A program made the translations under genes and the position numbers. A stretch of 48,899 nucleotides of DNA, taken from NCBI RefSeq assembly GCF_016908635.1, contig NZ_JAFBEG010000020.1:1-48899 (forward strand). The letters run 5' to 3'. Positions 23,817 to 36,295 of this stretch are shown piece by piece. Under the pieces are notes generated by a model. The model saw nothing but the letters and a program-made list of their open reading frames with translations. It had not been told where the DNA came from and searched no databases. Source of the DNA: Sporohalobacter salinus (lineage in GTDB: Bacteria; Bacillota; Halanaerobiia; Halobacteroidales; Acetohalobiaceae). Position 1 is the first letter of the stretch. Each line of letters begins with the position of its first letter.

Positions 23817-25415
23817 ATGAAAAAAGAAATCGATGTTAGTGAACGAGAAGCTTATTTTGTTGGGGGCGGTATAGCATCATTAGCTGGAGCTGCCTTTTTG
23901 ATTCGCGATGGAAAAATGCCAGCAGAAAATATTCATATCCTAGAGAAATTGGATGTCCTTGGCGGGGCTATGGATGGAGCTGGAAATCCAGAAGATGGGT
24001 ATGTAATTCGGGGGGGAAGAATGTATACCCAATTTGCGGATAGGCCAGCTTATGAATGTATGCGAGATCTATTCCGGTCAGTACCTTCTCTAGATGACCC
24101 AGAAATCTCGGTACTAGAAAAAACTCGTGAATTCAATAAAGGTATGAGTACAAACGCAGTAACAAGACTGGTAGGAGAAGACGGCGAGAGAATAAACGCA
24201 GCCTTATACCAGTTAACCGACCAACACCGTTTAGCCCTGACTCGTTTATTCCTGACTCCGGAACCAGAGTTGGGCAATAAAAAAATTAAAGATTACTTTT
24301 CCGAATCCTTTTTTGATACGAATTTCTGGTATTTATGGGCTACAGTTTTTGCTTTTCAACCCTGGCACAGTGTTGCCGAAATGAGACGTTATATGAATAG
24401 ATTTATGCAGGAGTTTGAGAGACTCCATAATCTCGGCGGAATAGATAGAACTAAATATAACCAATATGATTCTCAGATATTACCACTCCAAAAATGGCTC
24501 CAAGATAAGGGAGTAAACTTTAAAACAAGATGTATAGTTAAAGATATGGATATTAGTACTAATAAGCAGAGCAAAACTGTTGAAACAATCTATTACACAT
24601 TAGCTGGGGACAAGAAAGAAATTAATATTGATCCAACAGATCTGGTTTTTGTCACTAATGGTTCCATGACCGATGGTTCAGACCTGGGTTCAATGACTGA
24701 AGCACCACAGTTAAATGAAAAAGGAGCTTCTTTTGAGTTATGGAAAAATATAGCTGAGGGCAATCCCGAGTTTGGTAATCCAGCTAAGTTTTCTGATCAT
24801 ATTGAGAAAACAAAATGGGAATCTTTCACCGTAACCCTAAAAAACAAGGAACTCTTTGATCACATTATAGAATTTACCGAAGAAGAACCAGGGAATGGTT
24901 TAACTACATTTGTTAATTCTAGCTGGTTAATGTCAACAGTTGTTGCCGAACAGCCTCACTTCAAAAATCAACCTGATGACGTGAAAATCTTCTGGGGTTA
25001 CGGCTTATACCCGGAAGAAAAAGGAGATTATGTTGATAAAAAAATGGAAGATTGTACTGGAGAAGAAATCCTTAAAGAACTTTGTTATCACTTGCAATGT
25101 ACAGATAAACTTCCTTCTATCCTAGAAGATGTAAATTGTATTCCCTGCATGATGCCCTTTATCACTGCTCACTTTATGCCTAGAAAAATTGGAGACCGGC
25201 CTCGAGTTGTACCGAAAACATCTAATAATTTAGCATTTCTCGGACAATATGCTGAACTCCCAAATGATGTAGTATTTACGGTAGAATATTCAATAAGATC
25301 TGCTCAAACAGCTGTTTATAATTTACTTGCCCTCAATAAAAAAGTACCTCCTATAAATGAATATCAATTTGATATCCGGGTATTACTTAGTTCACTCCTC
25401 CATTCCTATAAATAA
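23817..25415 (+). CDS. Oleate hydratase family (MCRA) FAD protein, RGGRM type
   Basis: 532 aa. N-terminal FAD motif YFVGGGIASLAGAAFLIRDG, then the family segment VIRGGRMYTQFADRPAYECM (about 63-82) and FAFQPWHSVAEMRRYMNRFM. Also QPWHS, FVTNGSMTDGSDLGSMTEAP and the C-terminal AFLGQYAELPNDVVFTVEYS. The family adds water to cis-9 unsaturated fatty acids, giving 10-hydroxy acids. Most members have RGGREM, whose Glu activates water. Here Met 69 takes that place, as I recall for the monomeric Rhodococcus enzyme, so activity is possible but not certain. Membrane fatty-acid detoxification or stress is the usual role. The shared leader suggests co-expression with the CooS-like gene. Confidence 0.88.
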   Translation: MKKEIDVSEREAYFVGGGIASLAGAAFLIRDGKMPAENIHILEKLDVLGGAMDGAGNPEDGYVIRGGRMYTQFADRPAYECMRDLFRSVPSLDDPEISVLEKTREFNKGMSTNAVTRLVGEDGERINAALYQLTDQHRLALTRLFLTPEPELGNKKIKDYFSESFFDTNFWYLWATVFAFQPWHSVAEMRRYMNRFMQEFERLHNLGGIDRTKYNQYDSQILPLQKWLQDKGVNFKTRCIVKDMDISTNKQSKTVETIYYTLAGDKKEINIDPTDLVFVTNGSMTDGSDLGSMTEAPQLNEKGASFELWKNIAEGNPEFGNPAKFSDHIEKTKWESFTVTLKNKELFDHIIEFTEEEPGNGLTTFVNSSWLMSTVVAEQPHFKNQPDDVKIFWGYGLYPEEKGDYVDKKMEDCTGEEILKELCYHLQCTDKLPSILEDVNCIPCMMPFITAHFMPRKIGDRPRVVPKTSNNLAFLGQYAELPNDVVFTVEYSIRSAQTAVYNLLALNKKVPPINEYQFDIRVLLSSLLHSYK

Positions 25416-25566: not shown

Positions 25567-27489
25567 ATGGCAGATGCAATACCTGGAATTGAAGAACTAA
25601 CAGGTGGAAAAGTAAGTATTCACGAAACAGTTCAAGAAATGTATGAGAAAATTCATGAAGCTGGATTAAGTAATGTCTTTGATCGTTTTGATCCACAGGA
25701 AAAAATACGATGCGGTTTCTGTAGTGATGGAGTCAGTTGCCAGTTATGTACTAATGGTCCATGCCGTATCTCTGAAAAAGTCGGAGCTGAACTGGGTGAC
25801 TGTGGAATAGATCCTGATGCAATGGCCATGCGAGATATGTTACTAAGAAATATTATGGGATCTGGGACATATGCTCACCATGCCTACAATGCTTTTAGAA
25901 CCTTAAAATCAACTGGAGAAGGAAAAACACCTTTTAGTATTACTGATGAAGAAAAATTAAATTGGATGGCCGACTCTCTCGGTATTGATACCAATCAAAA
26001 GAAAGAAGATATTGCTATTCAACTAGGAGACACTTTAATAGATCAATTAAGCAGTAACTATGACGAACCTCCTCAAATAGTAGAAGTCTTTGCTCCAGAA
26101 CCTAGAAAGAAAGTCTGGAAAGACTTAGCTATCTACCCAGTTGGATTGATGCATGAAATTAAAGACGCTACTGCTAGTTGCTTAACTAATGTTGATGGAG
26201 ATCATTTCTCAATGGCTCGCAAAGCCTTACGAGCTGGAATTGCTACTATTTATGGTGCTCAGTTAGGTTTAGAAATGGTTCAAGATATTTTATTTGGAAC
26301 TCCAACACCTCATGAAGTTGATACTGACATGGGAATCTTAGATCCTGATTACGTTAATATTATGTTTAATGGTCACGAACCATGGACTGCAGTAGCTACC
26401 CTTTATGCTGCTCAAGATCCTAAAGTACAGCAAAAAGCTAAAGAAGCTGGTGCTAAAGGAGTTAGAGTAATTGGATCTATTGAAACTGGACAAGAGTTGC
26501 TACAACGTTTCGAAATAGATGATGTTTTTAGAGGATTAATTGGTAACTGGTTAGCTATCGAACCTGTTTTAGCTACTGGAGCAGTTGATATCTTTGCTAT
26601 GGACGAAAACTGTTCTCCTCCAAACTTAAAACCTTACGAAGAAGAATATCAGGTTAAATTAGTTTCTGTAAATGATTTAGTCAGAATCCCTGGAGTAGAT
26701 GAAAATTATGATTATAAACCAACTGAAGTAGGAAATACAGCTCAAAAACTAATCGATATGGGAATTGAAAACTTTAAACAACGACAAAAAAATATCACAC
26801 CTCACGTTCCACAACGAATTCAAAAAGCAGTCTCTGGTTTTTCCACTGAAGCAGTACTAAGTGCACTAGGTGGTAAATTAGATCCCTTAGTTGATGTAAT
26901 TAAAGAAGGAAACATTAAAGGAGTTGTAGGACTTATTAACTGTACGACCCTAGCTAATGGTCCTCACGATTATATGACTGTCAATCTCGCTAAAGAACTA
27001 GTTAAACGAGATATCTTAATTGTGAGCGGAGGATGTGGAAACCATGGTTTAGAAGTAGCTGGACTAGCCGCTCCAGATGCTGCCAAAAAATATGCTGGCG
27101 AAGGGCTAAAAGCAGTCTGTAATCAACTTAATATTCCACCAGTTCTTAGTTTTGGTACCTGTACAGATACAGGTAGAATTTCAATGTTAGTAACGGAATT
27201 AGCTAATTTCTTAGAAGTTGATACAGCTCAATTACCTGTCGCTGTTACTGCTCCTCAATATCTAGAACAAAAAGCTACAATTGATGCTATGTTCTCTTTA
27301 GCTTATGGATTATACACTCACTTATCTCCTACTCCGCCAGTTGCTGGAGGAGAAAATCTAGTTAACCTACTAACCGATGAATTAGAAGATCTCACCGGCG
27401 GAAAAGTTGCTTTAGGTAATAACCCTCAAAAAGCAGCTGATGGAATTGAAGAACATATCATTAAAAAGCGAAAAGGATTAGGTATTTAA
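25567..27489 (+). CDS. CooS-family protein with a Cys-to-Glu active site (CooS-V-like)
   Basis: 640 aa, full CODH length and fold. B-cluster Cys 58, 61, 66 and 79 are present; the D-cluster pair is C49-x2-C52 instead of the usual C-x7-C. Of the C-cluster ligands, His 270 (NGHEP), Cys 349, 459 (INCTTLANG), 490 (SGGCGNHG) and 532 (GTCTDTGRI) remain, as does Lys 569. But the GICCTGNE motif of true CODHs reads GSIETGQE: the Cys that binds the unique iron is Glu 306. CooS-V of Carboxydothermus lacks this Cys, has a [4Fe-3S-nO] hybrid cluster, reacts with hydroxylamine, and does not oxidise CO (from memory of published work). Hcp proteins also use a Glu ligand. There is no cooF or acs gene nearby, but two hcp genes are. 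A role in hydroxylamine/NO chemistry is therefore more likely than CO metabolism. Confidence 0.85.
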   Translation: MADAIPGIEELTGGKVSIHETVQEMYEKIHEAGLSNVFDRFDPQEKIRCGFCSDGVSCQLCTNGPCRISEKVGAELGDCGIDPDAMAMRDMLLRNIMGSGTYAHHAYNAFRTLKSTGEGKTPFSITDEEKLNWMADSLGIDTNQKKEDIAIQLGDTLIDQLSSNYDEPPQIVEVFAPEPRKKVWKDLAIYPVGLMHEIKDATASCLTNVDGDHFSMARKALRAGIATIYGAQLGLEMVQDILFGTPTPHEVDTDMGILDPDYVNIMFNGHEPWTAVATLYAAQDPKVQQKAKEAGAKGVRVIGSIETGQELLQRFEIDDVFRGLIGNWLAIEPVLATGAVDIFAMDENCSPPNLKPYEEEYQVKLVSVNDLVRIPGVDENYDYKPTEVGNTAQKLIDMGIENFKQRQKNITPHVPQRIQKAVSGFSTEAVLSALGGKLDPLVDVIKEGNIKGVVGLINCTTLANGPHDYMTVNLAKELVKRDILIVSGGCGNHGLEVAGLAAPDAAKKYAGEGLKAVCNQLNIPPVLSFGTCTDTGRISMLVTELANFLEVDTAQLPVAVTAPQYLEQKATIDAMFSLAYGLYTHLSPTPPVAGGENLVNLLTDELEDLTGGKVALGNNPQKAADGIEEHIIKKRKGLGI

Positions 27490-30589: not shown

Positions 30590-31393
30590 CTAAGCCGATT
30601 TACTTACTTCTTGATTATTAGTTACTACATTAGTTGAAGCATACCAGTACAAAGCTCCAATTAATAATCCACCACCAATTATATTACCAGCTGTAACTGA
30701 AACTAAATTTCTAACATAACCGACAATTGTTATAGTTTCGGGATGAGGAATCATCAACCCCATTCCTAACAAACTCATATTAGCAATACTATGTTCAAAA
30801 CCGCTGCCGATAAAGGCAAATAAACACCAAAAAATCAAAATTAGTTTAGCAACTTCATTTTTAGCTTTAATTGCCATCCAGACTGCTAAACAAACTAACA
30901 TATTACATAAAATACCGCGGAAGAATAGTTGGCCTAAAGGAGCATTCATTTTAGCAGCGCTAACACTTATTATGAAGTCAGCAGTAGGCGCTTTAGAAAT
31001 CAGACCTGTTTTAATAACTAACCAGGCTATTGCCAATGACCCCACCAAATTTCCTATATAACACCAGAACCATAATTTTAACAAATTAAAAATACTTATT
31101 TCTCCATCCAGCCAGCCAACCATCATTACCAGATTATTGCCAGTAAATAATTCAGAACCAGCAAAAATAACTAGGGTTAAAGCAACTCCAAAAGAAGTCC
31201 CCATTACTAATTTAACTAATGGAGAACCTGCTTTTACTAACGGAGCCCCAATAGAAAAGATCAAGATAGTTCCCAACCCTACAAAAACACCAGCAAACAT
31301 TGATAATACAAAATACTTACCTAAATTTTGATTCATAAAATCAACTTTTTTCTGAGCTGAATTGACTACCTTATTAATATTTGTTCTAAACAA
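30590..31393 (-). CDS. FNT-family channel, probably hydrosulfide (HSC-type)
   Basis: 267 aa with six membrane helices in the formate/nitrite transporter pattern (LGTILIFSIGAPLVKAGSP, AGSELFTGNNLVMM, CYIGNLVGSLAIAW, FRGILCNMLVCLAVWM, GSGFEHSIANMSLLGMGLM, NIIGGGLLIGALYWY). FNT proteins export formate, nitrite or HS-. The gene leads the asrABC operon, the same arrangement as the known hydrosulfide channel of Clostridioides difficile. Removing the sulfide made by AsrABC is therefore the best guess. NirC-type nitrite transport is an alternative, given the hcp neighbours. Confidence 0.85.
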   Translation of the reverse strand: MFRTNINKVVNSAQKKVDFMNQNLGKYFVLSMFAGVFVGLGTILIFSIGAPLVKAGSPLVKLVMGTSFGVALTLVIFAGSELFTGNNLVMMVGWLDGEISIFNLLKLWFWCYIGNLVGSLAIAWLVIKTGLISKAPTADFIISVSAAKMNAPLGQLFFRGILCNMLVCLAVWMAIKAKNEVAKLILIFWCLFAFIGSGFEHSIANMSLLGMGLMIPHPETITIVGYVRNLVSVTAGNIIGGGLLIGALYWYASTNVVTNNQEVSKSA

Positions 31394-31616: not shown

Positions 31617-32951
31617 ATGTTTGGATGGTTTAGTAACGATGAAAATGAAGTAGAAAATCCTGATATGTTTTGTTATCAATGCGAACAGACTTTAGAAGGA
31701 GGGTGCACAAAGTTTGGTGTCTGTGGTAAAGATCCTAATTTAGCTAGCTTACAAGATACAATTATCTTTGGCTTAAAAGGAGTAGCGGCTTATGCTACTC
31801 ACGCTAGAGAATTAGGTTATACAAGTGATAAAGTAAATCAAATCACTCAAGAAGCCCTATATACTACTTTGACTAATTCTAACTTTAATTTAGAAGAACA
31901 CATTGAAATGGCCCTAAAAGTAGGAGAAGCTACTACTGAAGTAATGGACTTATTAGATCAAGCTCATACAGAAAATTTAGGTATTCCTGAACCCGTTGAA
32001 GTTACCCAAAATAAAGTAGAAGGACATTCTATTGTAGTTACAGGACATAATTTATATGCTTTAAAAGAATTATTAAAACAAACAGAAGGTAAAGGAATTA
32101 ATATTTATACTCATTCCGAAATGTTACCTGCTCATGGATATCCCGAATTAAATAAATACGATCATCTGAAGGGGAATATTGGTAAAGCCTGGTATGATCA
32201 ACGCCAATTATTTGCTGATTTTCCAGGAGCTATTTTGGGAACTACTAACTGCTTAATGCCGATTAAAGGAGATTATGAAGACCGCTTCTTCACTCATGGA
32301 ACTGCTGGCTTAAAAGGAGCACAAAAAATTGAAAATGATGACTTCACTCCTTTAATTGAAAAAGCCTTAGAATTACCAGCAGCTAATCTAGATTCAGACG
32401 AAACTCTAACTACCGGTTTTCACCACCAAACTGTATTGAACATTGCTCCAGAAATTGTGGAGGCTGTAAAGGACGGCAAAATTAGTAGGTTTTTTGTAAT
32501 TGCCGGCTGCGATGCTCCAACTCAAGGAAGAGACTATTATCGAGAATTAGCTAAATCAATTCCTGAAGATGGAGTTATTTTAACTACTTCTTGCGGTAAG
32601 TTTAGATTTAATGATCTTGATTACGGCACTGTTCCCGGCACGGATATCCCGCGCTACATTGATTTAGGTCAATGTAATAATTCAGGATCAGCAGTTAAAA
32701 TTGCTCTTGCTTTAGCAGAAGCCTTTGACTGTGAAATAAATGAACTACCGCTTAGCATCGTTTTATCTTGGTTTGAACAAAAGGCAGTAGCCATTTTATT
32801 AGGATTATTTAATTTAGGCATTCAAGATATCTACGTTGGTCCTACAGTTCCTGAATTCCTATCAGAAACTGTCGTTGAAGTTCTTCAAGATAACTTTAAT
32901 TTACAAACTACTGGTGATCCGCAAGAAGATCTACAACAAATGCTAGACTAA
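31617..32951 (+). CDS. hcp: Hydroxylamine reductase/NO reductase, hybrid-cluster protein (short form)
   Basis: 444 aa, about 100 shorter than Hcp2 here. It lacks one N-terminal helical domain, like the short archaeal/thermophile class. N-terminal [4Fe-4S] Cys: CYQCEQTLEGGC then FGVC (C-x2-C-x7-C-x5-C, residues 19-36). Hybrid-cluster ligands: His 144 (TGHNL), Glu 168 (HSEMLPAHGYP), Cys 212 (TTNCLMP), GCDAP, TTSCGKF, LGQCNNSG and FEQKA. Hcp reduces NO or hydroxylamine and is also a protein S-nitrosylase in E. coli. It has its own FNR-like promoter and a strong terminator. Confidence 0.92.
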   Translation: MFGWFSNDENEVENPDMFCYQCEQTLEGGCTKFGVCGKDPNLASLQDTIIFGLKGVAAYATHARELGYTSDKVNQITQEALYTTLTNSNFNLEEHIEMALKVGEATTEVMDLLDQAHTENLGIPEPVEVTQNKVEGHSIVVTGHNLYALKELLKQTEGKGINIYTHSEMLPAHGYPELNKYDHLKGNIGKAWYDQRQLFADFPGAILGTTNCLMPIKGDYEDRFFTHGTAGLKGAQKIENDDFTPLIEKALELPAANLDSDETLTTGFHHQTVLNIAPEIVEAVKDGKISRFFVIAGCDAPTQGRDYYRELAKSIPEDGVILTTSCGKFRFNDLDYGTVPGTDIPRYIDLGQCNNSGSAVKIALALAEAFDCEINELPLSIVLSWFEQKAVAILLGLFNLGIQDIYVGPTVPEFLSETVVEVLQDNFNLQTTGDPQEDLQQMLD

Positions 32952-34636: not shown

Positions 34637-36295
34637 CTATGCTAACATCTTCTCCATATCTTCTTTTACAGTAGTATTTGGCTGAATATTAAATTGGTCA
34701 ACTAACACATCTAATACATTTTCCGAAACAAATGCTGGTAATTTAGGCCCTAGGTGAATATCTTGAACTCCTAGAGAAAGCAGCGCCAATAAGACTAAAA
34801 CTGCTTTTTGTTCGTACCAGGCAATGTTATAGGAAATAGGTAGTTCATTAATATCATCAACGTCAAATGCACCAGCTAGTTTCTGAGCAATTGCTACTAA
34901 CGAATATGAGTCATTGCATTGACCGGCATCTAATACCCGTGGAATACCGCCAATATCACCTAGATCAAGTTTATTATATCTATATTTAGCACAACCAGCA
35001 GTTAGAATTACTGTATCTTCTGGTAGTTCTTTAGCAAATTCAGTATAGTAATCTCGATCAGCATGACGTCCGTCACAACCACCCATGACAAAGAACTGAC
35101 TAATATCTCCATTTTTAACTGCTTCTACTACTTTATCTGCTACTCCAGAAACTGCATTACGAGCAAAACCGCCCATAATTGTACCTGTCTCTAATTCTTC
35201 TGGCGCTTCACATTGTTTGGCATGTTCAATAACTGAAGAGAAGTCTTTAGACTGATCATTAACTCGATCGCCAATATGATCCATACCTTCAAAACCAACT
35301 ACTCCTGTAGTATAAACTCTATCTTTATAAGAATCTTTCGGTGGTACTAAACAATTAGTAGTCATTAGAATTGGTCCGTTAAATTTCTCAAATTCTTCTT
35401 TCTGCTTCCACCAAGAACCGCCATAGTTACCAGCAAAATGATCATATTCTTTAAAGGCAGGATAAGACTGAGCTGGAAGCATTTCTCCATGGGTATAAAC
35501 ATCTACCCCTGTACCTTTTGTCTGCTCTAGCAGTTCTTCTAAATCTCTTAAGTCGTGACCGCTCACTAAAATTCCTGGATTATCTCTAGTACCTAGCTCT
35601 ACTTCAGTTGGTTCAGGATGACCGTAATTTTCAGTATTAGCCTTATCTAATAGTGCCATAGTATCGACACCCAATTCACCGCACTTCATTACTAAACCTA
35701 CTAAGTCATCAACAGTTAGGCTATCATCAGTAATAGCAACTAATGCTTCCTTCATGAAGGAGAAAATTTCATCTTTTTTCTCGCCCAGTACATAAGCATG
35801 ATCAGCATAAGCAGCAATTCCTTTTAAACCATAAGTTAATAACTCACGTAAGGAATTAATATCTTCATTATCAGTTGTAGGAATTCCTACTTCTTCTGAT
35901 TTTTGATAAATTTCATCTTTGCTATCAGCTGTCCAAGTAGCCATCTCCGGAACTTCTGCGTCTAAATCTGCTTCACTACCATCATATTCAGCTAGTAGCT
36001 TATCTTTTAGATCAGCTCTTACCTCAAAAGCTTCTTCAATAAATTCTACGAAATCGTCTTCAGCAAAGTTAACATTAGTCACTGTCGCAAATAAACTTTC
36101 CATAATGAATTCATCAGCTTTTTCATCCTGAACCCCTAGGGCTTCAGCTTTAGCTCCATAGACTGAAATTCCTTTTAATAAGTAAATTAATAAGTCTTGT
36201 AAGTTAGCCACAGTATCAGTTTTTCCACAGACACCTCTAATTGTACACCCTTCTCCTTTAGCCGTTTCTTCACATTGATAACAAAGCATTGACAT
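34637..36295 (-). CDS. hcp: Hydroxylamine reductase/NO reductase, hybrid-cluster protein (full length)
   Basis: 552 aa, class I size. N-terminal Cys [13 protein letters not shown] then IRGVC (C-x2-C-x8-C-x5-C). Hybrid-cluster ligands: His 247 (VSGHDLRD), Glu 271 (THGEMLPA), Cys in [40 protein letters not shown] and YEQKAV. It is second in an operon with a methyltransferase (21 bp gap) and shares its FNR-like promoter. The strain therefore carries two different Hcp forms plus the tail of a third. Division of labour unknown. Confidence 0.93.

Follow-up and report, generated by a model that had tools for sequence, protein, structure and literature searches.

Structural group D-1 and CooS-V of Carboxydothermus hydrogenoformans

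Structural group D-1 of Ni-CODH clade D was described in 2019 and is defined by a Cys to Glu change occurring with a type III D-cluster, whose motif, C-x2-C, reflects a change of Gly41 to Cys41 (PMC6344411). In this group the acid-base His is a Tyr, and an Hcp-like function was suggested for it (PMC6344411). CooS-V of Carboxydothermus hydrogenoformans was characterised in 2022, with crystal structures 7B7Q, 7B7T, 7B95, 7B97 and 7B9A in the PDB (PMC9311411). CooS-V has no Ni, its [4Fe-2S-S*-2O-2(H2O)] cluster converts to [4Fe-3S] on reduction, and a persulfide gates its channel (PMC9311411). The enzyme catalysed neither CO oxidation nor CO2 reduction, and NO reduction was not detected; hydroxylamine was turned over with a kcat of 0.13 per second and a catalytic efficiency of 20 per M per s, which is below that of the R. 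rubrum CODH (PMC9311411). The C295E variant of CODH-II is reported to have lost both Ni and CO oxidation (PMC9311411; PMC6344411). Glu295 of CooS-V was reported as not aligning with the Glu ligand of Hcp (PMC10502027), and for this reason we regard the likeness to Hcp as convergent in detail.

For clade D, a 2026 study found that 64% of the genes stand alone with no pattern, that co-occurrence of CODH and HCP in genomes is highest for this clade, and proposed a redox-sensing or regulatory role (PMC13056359). In C. autoethanogenum, the solitary cooS2, assigned to clade D in PMC13056359, was dispensable, and neither cooS gene restored CO oxidation once acsA was lost (PMC4895105).

Identity and predicted metal ligands of the window protein

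We analysed a stretch of 48,899 nucleotides from Sporohalobacter salinus, hereafter the window, which carries a cooS gene (Table 1). AGGAGG sits just 5' of its ATG, and the opposite strand of the gene has no comparable open reading frame. The protein scored 848 bits against the NCBIfam model CO_DH_cata (TIGR01702; cut-off 478) and 481 bits against Pfam Prismane. The NCBIfam hydroxylamine reductase models gave 42 bits, below their cut-offs of 361 and 367. When all PDB sequences were searched with phmmer, the top match was 7b7q, which is CooS-V (E 2.5e-274; 915 bits over residues 15-640), and the next CODH scored 400 bits. The CooS-V and CODH-II sequences used for comparison were both taken from genome G105, a single contig of 2,401,520 bases with five cooS genes, of which one is split. 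The 7b7q stretches that we compared are present in the G105 locus, so the comparison was made with the characterised protein itself. In the alignment, the window protein was 62.6% identical to CooS-V and 31.6% identical to CODH-II.

Table 1. Positions of the cooS gene, its predicted cluster sites and neighbouring genes in the window.
Feature	Position	Strand	Basis or remark
cooS gene, CooS-V type (structural group D-1), 640 aa	25567..27489	+	ATG start; profiles, alignment, tree
D-cluster C49-x2-C52, predicted intersubunit [2Fe-2S] site, codons 49-52 (= CooS-V C38, C41)	25711..25722	+	alignment; cluster type from PMC9311411
B-cluster C58-x2-C61-x4-C66-x12-C79, [4Fe-4S], codons 58-79	25738..25803	+	alignment; PMC9311411
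His ligand, codon 270 (= CooS-V H259)	26374..26376	+	alignment
GSIETGQE, residues 303-310; E306 at Cys295 of CODH-II (= CooS-V E295)	26473..26496	+	alignment
N348-C349 (= CooS-V N337-C338)	26608..26613	+	alignment
Cys ligand, codon 459 (= CooS-V C449)	26941..26943	+	alignment
Cys ligand, codon 490 (= CooS-V C480)	27034..27036	+	alignment
Cys codon 532 (= CooS-V C521, persulfide carrier in oxidised CooS-V)	27160..27162	+	alignment; PMC9311411
Glu ligand, codon 567 (= CooS-V E556; Hcp E494)	27265..27267	+	alignment; PMC9311411
Oleate hydratase gene	23817-25415	+	151 bp upstream of cooS, in line
FNT-family channel	30590-31393	-	adjoins asrABC, also in G052
Short, class III-like Hcp	31617-32951	+	best matches 7e0l and 7wsx
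Class I Hcp	34637-36295	-	

The hybrid-cluster ligands of CooS-V were all matched one to one in the window protein, namely H270, E306, C349, C459, C490, C532 and E567, and C58, C61, C66 and C79 corresponded to the B-cluster residues C47, C50, C55 and C68. A preliminary description of the gene had named a CODH fold with H270, C349, C459, C490 and C532 in place, and residues and numbering proved exact: they align with H261, C333, C446, C476 and C526 of CODH-II. It had also proposed that Glu 306 in GSIETGQE replaces a Cys and that the D-cluster motif is altered to C-x2-C. Both hold, as E306 falls at C295 of CODH-II with no alternative Cys at the lost ligand position, and C52 takes the place of a Gly in CODH-II. 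In addition, Y102 aligned with the acid-base H93 of CODH-II and E567 with H561, and the counterpart of Lys563 is kept as K569. All aligned Glu-type sequences but one share these active-site residues, so that chance is not an issue.

These comparisons place the protein among the described systems. The features that define group D-1 are all present (Cys295 to Glu with the other C-cluster ligands kept, C-x2-C, and Tyr at His93), and we found no difference from that group (PMC6344411). CooS-V, whose published description mentioned in the preliminary account is real (PMC9311411), is matched over its full length and in every hybrid-, B- and D-cluster ligand. The two differ at residue 104, which is His in the window protein and Tyr93 in CooS-V, and in host, since the window comes from a group of halophilic anaerobes (the nearest loci with a name are Natroniella, Halanaerobiales). 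With CODH-II and other Ni,Fe-CODHs the protein shares the fold, five of six C-cluster ligands and the B-cluster, but it lacks the complete set of five Cys and one His because E306 replaces one Cys, and it further differs by Gly to Cys in the D-cluster region, His93 to Tyr, His561 to Glu and an identity of only about 32%. With Hcp of classes I-III it shares a distant fold kinship and, by homology with CooS-V, the hybrid-cluster ligand set. E567 corresponds to Glu494 of Hcp, and the CooS-V counterpart of E306 is reported not to align with the Hcp Glu ligand (PMC10502027). Unlike Hcp, the window protein is of the CODH dimer type with a D-cluster and has this Glu ligand at a non-equivalent place, and the cluster potentials of CooS-V are about 300 mV lower (PMC9311411; PMC10502027).

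An AlphaFold2 model built from a seven-sequence alignment (mean pLDDT 72, pTM 0.78) replaced a discarded single-sequence model (pLDDT 36), and its best fold match was again 7b7q (TM 0.89, no metals being placed by AlphaFold). Confidence was low at residues 37-80, and as a result the N-terminal cluster sites rest on the alignment. The alignment and the structure prediction, both suggested in the preliminary description as checks, agreed with its reading of a probable hybrid-cluster enzyme.

The window protein is an ortholog of C. hydrogenoformans CooS-V, and we conclude, with a probability of about 0.9, that it is a CooS-V-type hybrid-cluster protein. The window gene is an ordinary member of a group already solved and described; the original finding is correct, and it is not new. 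By analogy with the C. hydrogenoformans protein, from which we infer its cluster make-up, redox cycle and CO inactivity, the window CooS should neither bind Ni nor turn over CO. A true CODH that uses a Glu ligand and still binds Ni would explain the CODH fold and the retained K569. This is highly improbable, however, because CooS-V has identical ligands and neither Ni nor CO activity (PMC9311411), the C295E change cost CODH-II both, His93 of CODH-II is Tyr102 here, and cooC is not nearby.

Descent and distribution of the Glu-type genes

The tree comprised 90 family members, with Glu-type sequences drawn from the phylum and a distant root of two Hcp sequences. Its alignment left out the Glu/Cys column as well as two columns of the D-cluster. 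All 51 Glu-type sequences (51/51) fell on one side of a single branch (SH-aLRT 100), and the Cys/Glu trait needs a single change on the tree. This clade holds both the window protein and CooS-V, so the window protein joins the CooS-V clade even with the trait column removed. Within it, the window protein falls together with the G052, G055 and G054 proteins (92, 88 and 84% identity). The closest Cys-type sequences carry the motifs GSMCTGQE and GHVCEGQQ, and the Glu-type clade is nested among CooS-type proteins. The nesting is in line with a CODH scaffold having given rise to the Glu-type group, which is the view of PMC9311411; the reverse direction of descent is argued for in PMC10502027, and the tree does not settle the direction.

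Two points raised horizontal transfer of the window cooS: the 92% identity to G052, a genome of another family, and a genome of the same genus (G001) without such a gene. We do not claim transfer, because MnmA orders the other genomes similarly.

The window genome has one further CODH, of the Cys type (C1:134899-136767), beside a ferredoxin-like gene, a FAD oxidoreductase and an Rrf2-type regulator. A further CODH is also found with CooS-V. Elsewhere, the CooS-V-type gene was the only match to the CODH profile (E 1e-30) in 14 of the 53 genomes having such a gene, most of them drafts in which single absences can be assembly gaps, less so for the two single-contig genomes, G052 and G412. The other twelve are G034, G279, G431, G352, G409, G371, G059, G106, G144, G327, G163 and G181, and 10 of the 14, those in the alignment, were verified to carry the full ligand set. 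Occurrence as the only CODH in 14/53 genomes departs from a statement in PMC9311411. G409 and G371 also had no Hcp match, and G054, which has a Glu-type gene, had no hcp match at E 1e-60.

Two members of the family are deviant. In genome G239 (contig C21; L091:9033-10910, minus strand), an intact CooS-V ortholog that shares its syntenic position with its family relatives has lost all four active-site Cys (to Ser, Gly, Ser and Ser) and has Asp at the place of Glu 567, while it keeps the B- and D-cluster Cys, the His and the Glu at 306. It sits on a long branch, has new Cys where 305 and 488 would be, and is possibly a cluster-free or re-wired member. In a metagenome assembly, a CooS-V-type gene runs in two frames (L008:9764-11890, plus strand), by either a frameshift or an assembly error.

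Gene neighbourhood and possible functions

The window cooS has oleate hydratase on its 5' side and is otherwise surrounded by asrCBA, an FNT-family transporter, the short Hcp, a FAD oxidoreductase and the class I Hcp. The FNT-family protein probably conducts nitrite, sulfite or hydrosulfide. The short Hcp best matched 7e0l and 7wsx, two structures of a hydroxylamine reductase of 506 aa that we equate with the class III protein of PMC10502027. Both hcp genes fit within 5 kb, and three kinds of hybrid-cluster scaffold fall inside 11 kb. As the preliminary description had it, the gene lies beside asr and two hcp genes, with cooF, cooC and acs absent from its immediate surroundings. The latter absence recalls CooS-V; the asr and hcp neighbours set the window apart from it. 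Genes of true Ni,Fe-CODHs usually have cooF, cooC or acs as companions, although this does not strictly define them.

The preliminary description took this context to mean recruitment to nitrogen-oxide or hydroxylamine chemistry. We surveyed 51 other Glu-type loci, up to about 9-10 kb either side (some end early at contig ends, and one has a broken frame), and found hcp near cooS in 0/51 and a clear asr operon in none; oleate hydratase was not found beside the other Glu-type genes examined. The neighbours vary by lineage, with no conservation across the phylum. In G052, the closest relative, the hcp genes are at 424 and 788 kb and cooS is at 1,246 kb, with an FNT-asrABC block about 14 kb from cooS. 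The Natroniella locus and the window have an adhE neighbour in common, and conservation stops there, likewise in G052. Further, hcp occurs in 51/59 genomes of the class, with or without CooS-V. In the upstream regions of Glu-type genes, neither scans for Rex-, FNR/HcpR-, CRP- and PerR-like sites nor a crude count of dyads, made on about 50 of these regions, gave anything above shuffles. Since the neighbourhood is not conserved, hcp is near-universal and no shared operator was found, we conclude that the context is poor evidence for a nitrogen-oxide role, and this part of the preliminary description is not supported.

We weighed what such a protein could do. Detoxification of hydroxylamine or NO jointly with the neighbouring Hcp proteins and sulfite reductase would account for a class I Hcp, a class III-like Hcp and asrABC-FNT all within 9 kb, for the slow hydroxylamine reduction by CooS-V (PMC9311411) and for clade D having the highest CODH-HCP co-occurrence (PMC13056359). 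Yet hcp is missing from every other surveyed locus and lies hundreds of kb away in the closest relative, no upstream motif is common to the Glu-type genes, the gene is present in the three genomes above that gave no hcp match, and CooS-V is less efficient with hydroxylamine than the R. rubrum CODH, with no NO reduction detected (PMC9311411). We consider joint detoxification quite unlikely.

A second possibility is that the protein is no metabolic enzyme and serves as a redox sensor or a regulator, with the redox-driven cluster change as the signal, as proposed for clade D (PMC13056359). The very slow turnover with a large, reversible cluster rearrangement (PMC9311411), the mostly solitary genes (our survey; PMC13056359) and the open reading frame kept intact in G239 despite the loss of all four active-site Cys are consistent with sensing. 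Against it, there is neither a signalling domain nor a conserved partner gene, the ligands are strictly kept in all aligned Glu-type sequences but one, as expected of a catalyst, and the Cys-less case is a single genome. A sensor thus seems doubtful.

We lean towards the window CooS working as a low-potential reductase, by analogy with one enzyme, CooS-V, which turns over hydroxylamine slowly and for which no NO reduction was detected (PMC9311411); hydroxylamine is a poor stand-in for the natural substrate of the CooS-V type. The window protein would be a homodimer, each subunit with a [4Fe-4S] B-cluster, bridged by a [2Fe-2S] cluster held by C49 and C52 of both subunits. An Fe-S-O hybrid cluster, held by the ligands given above, would replace the Ni,Fe C-cluster. 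By homology, electrons entering via the D- and B-clusters would convert the hybrid cluster to [4Fe-3S], and entry of the C532 persulfide sulfur into that cluster would open the active-site channel. A small oxidised molecule would then be reduced, returning the cluster to its oxidised, closed form.

For the group, we suggest very tentatively that CooS-V-type proteins are stand-alone low-potential reductases, apart from both CO metabolism and Hcp, because no other member of the CODH/Hcp superfamily was detected in G409 and G371, and the cluster Cys have been dropped in at least one lineage that kept the protein. The group is still annotated as CO dehydrogenase in databases, so CO metabolism of the host should not be predicted from the window gene. 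Our comparisons bring the function of CooS-V into sharper focus as a question on which the neighbourhood is silent; its role is most cleanly probed in genomes where the CooS-V type occurs without another CODH or an Hcp.
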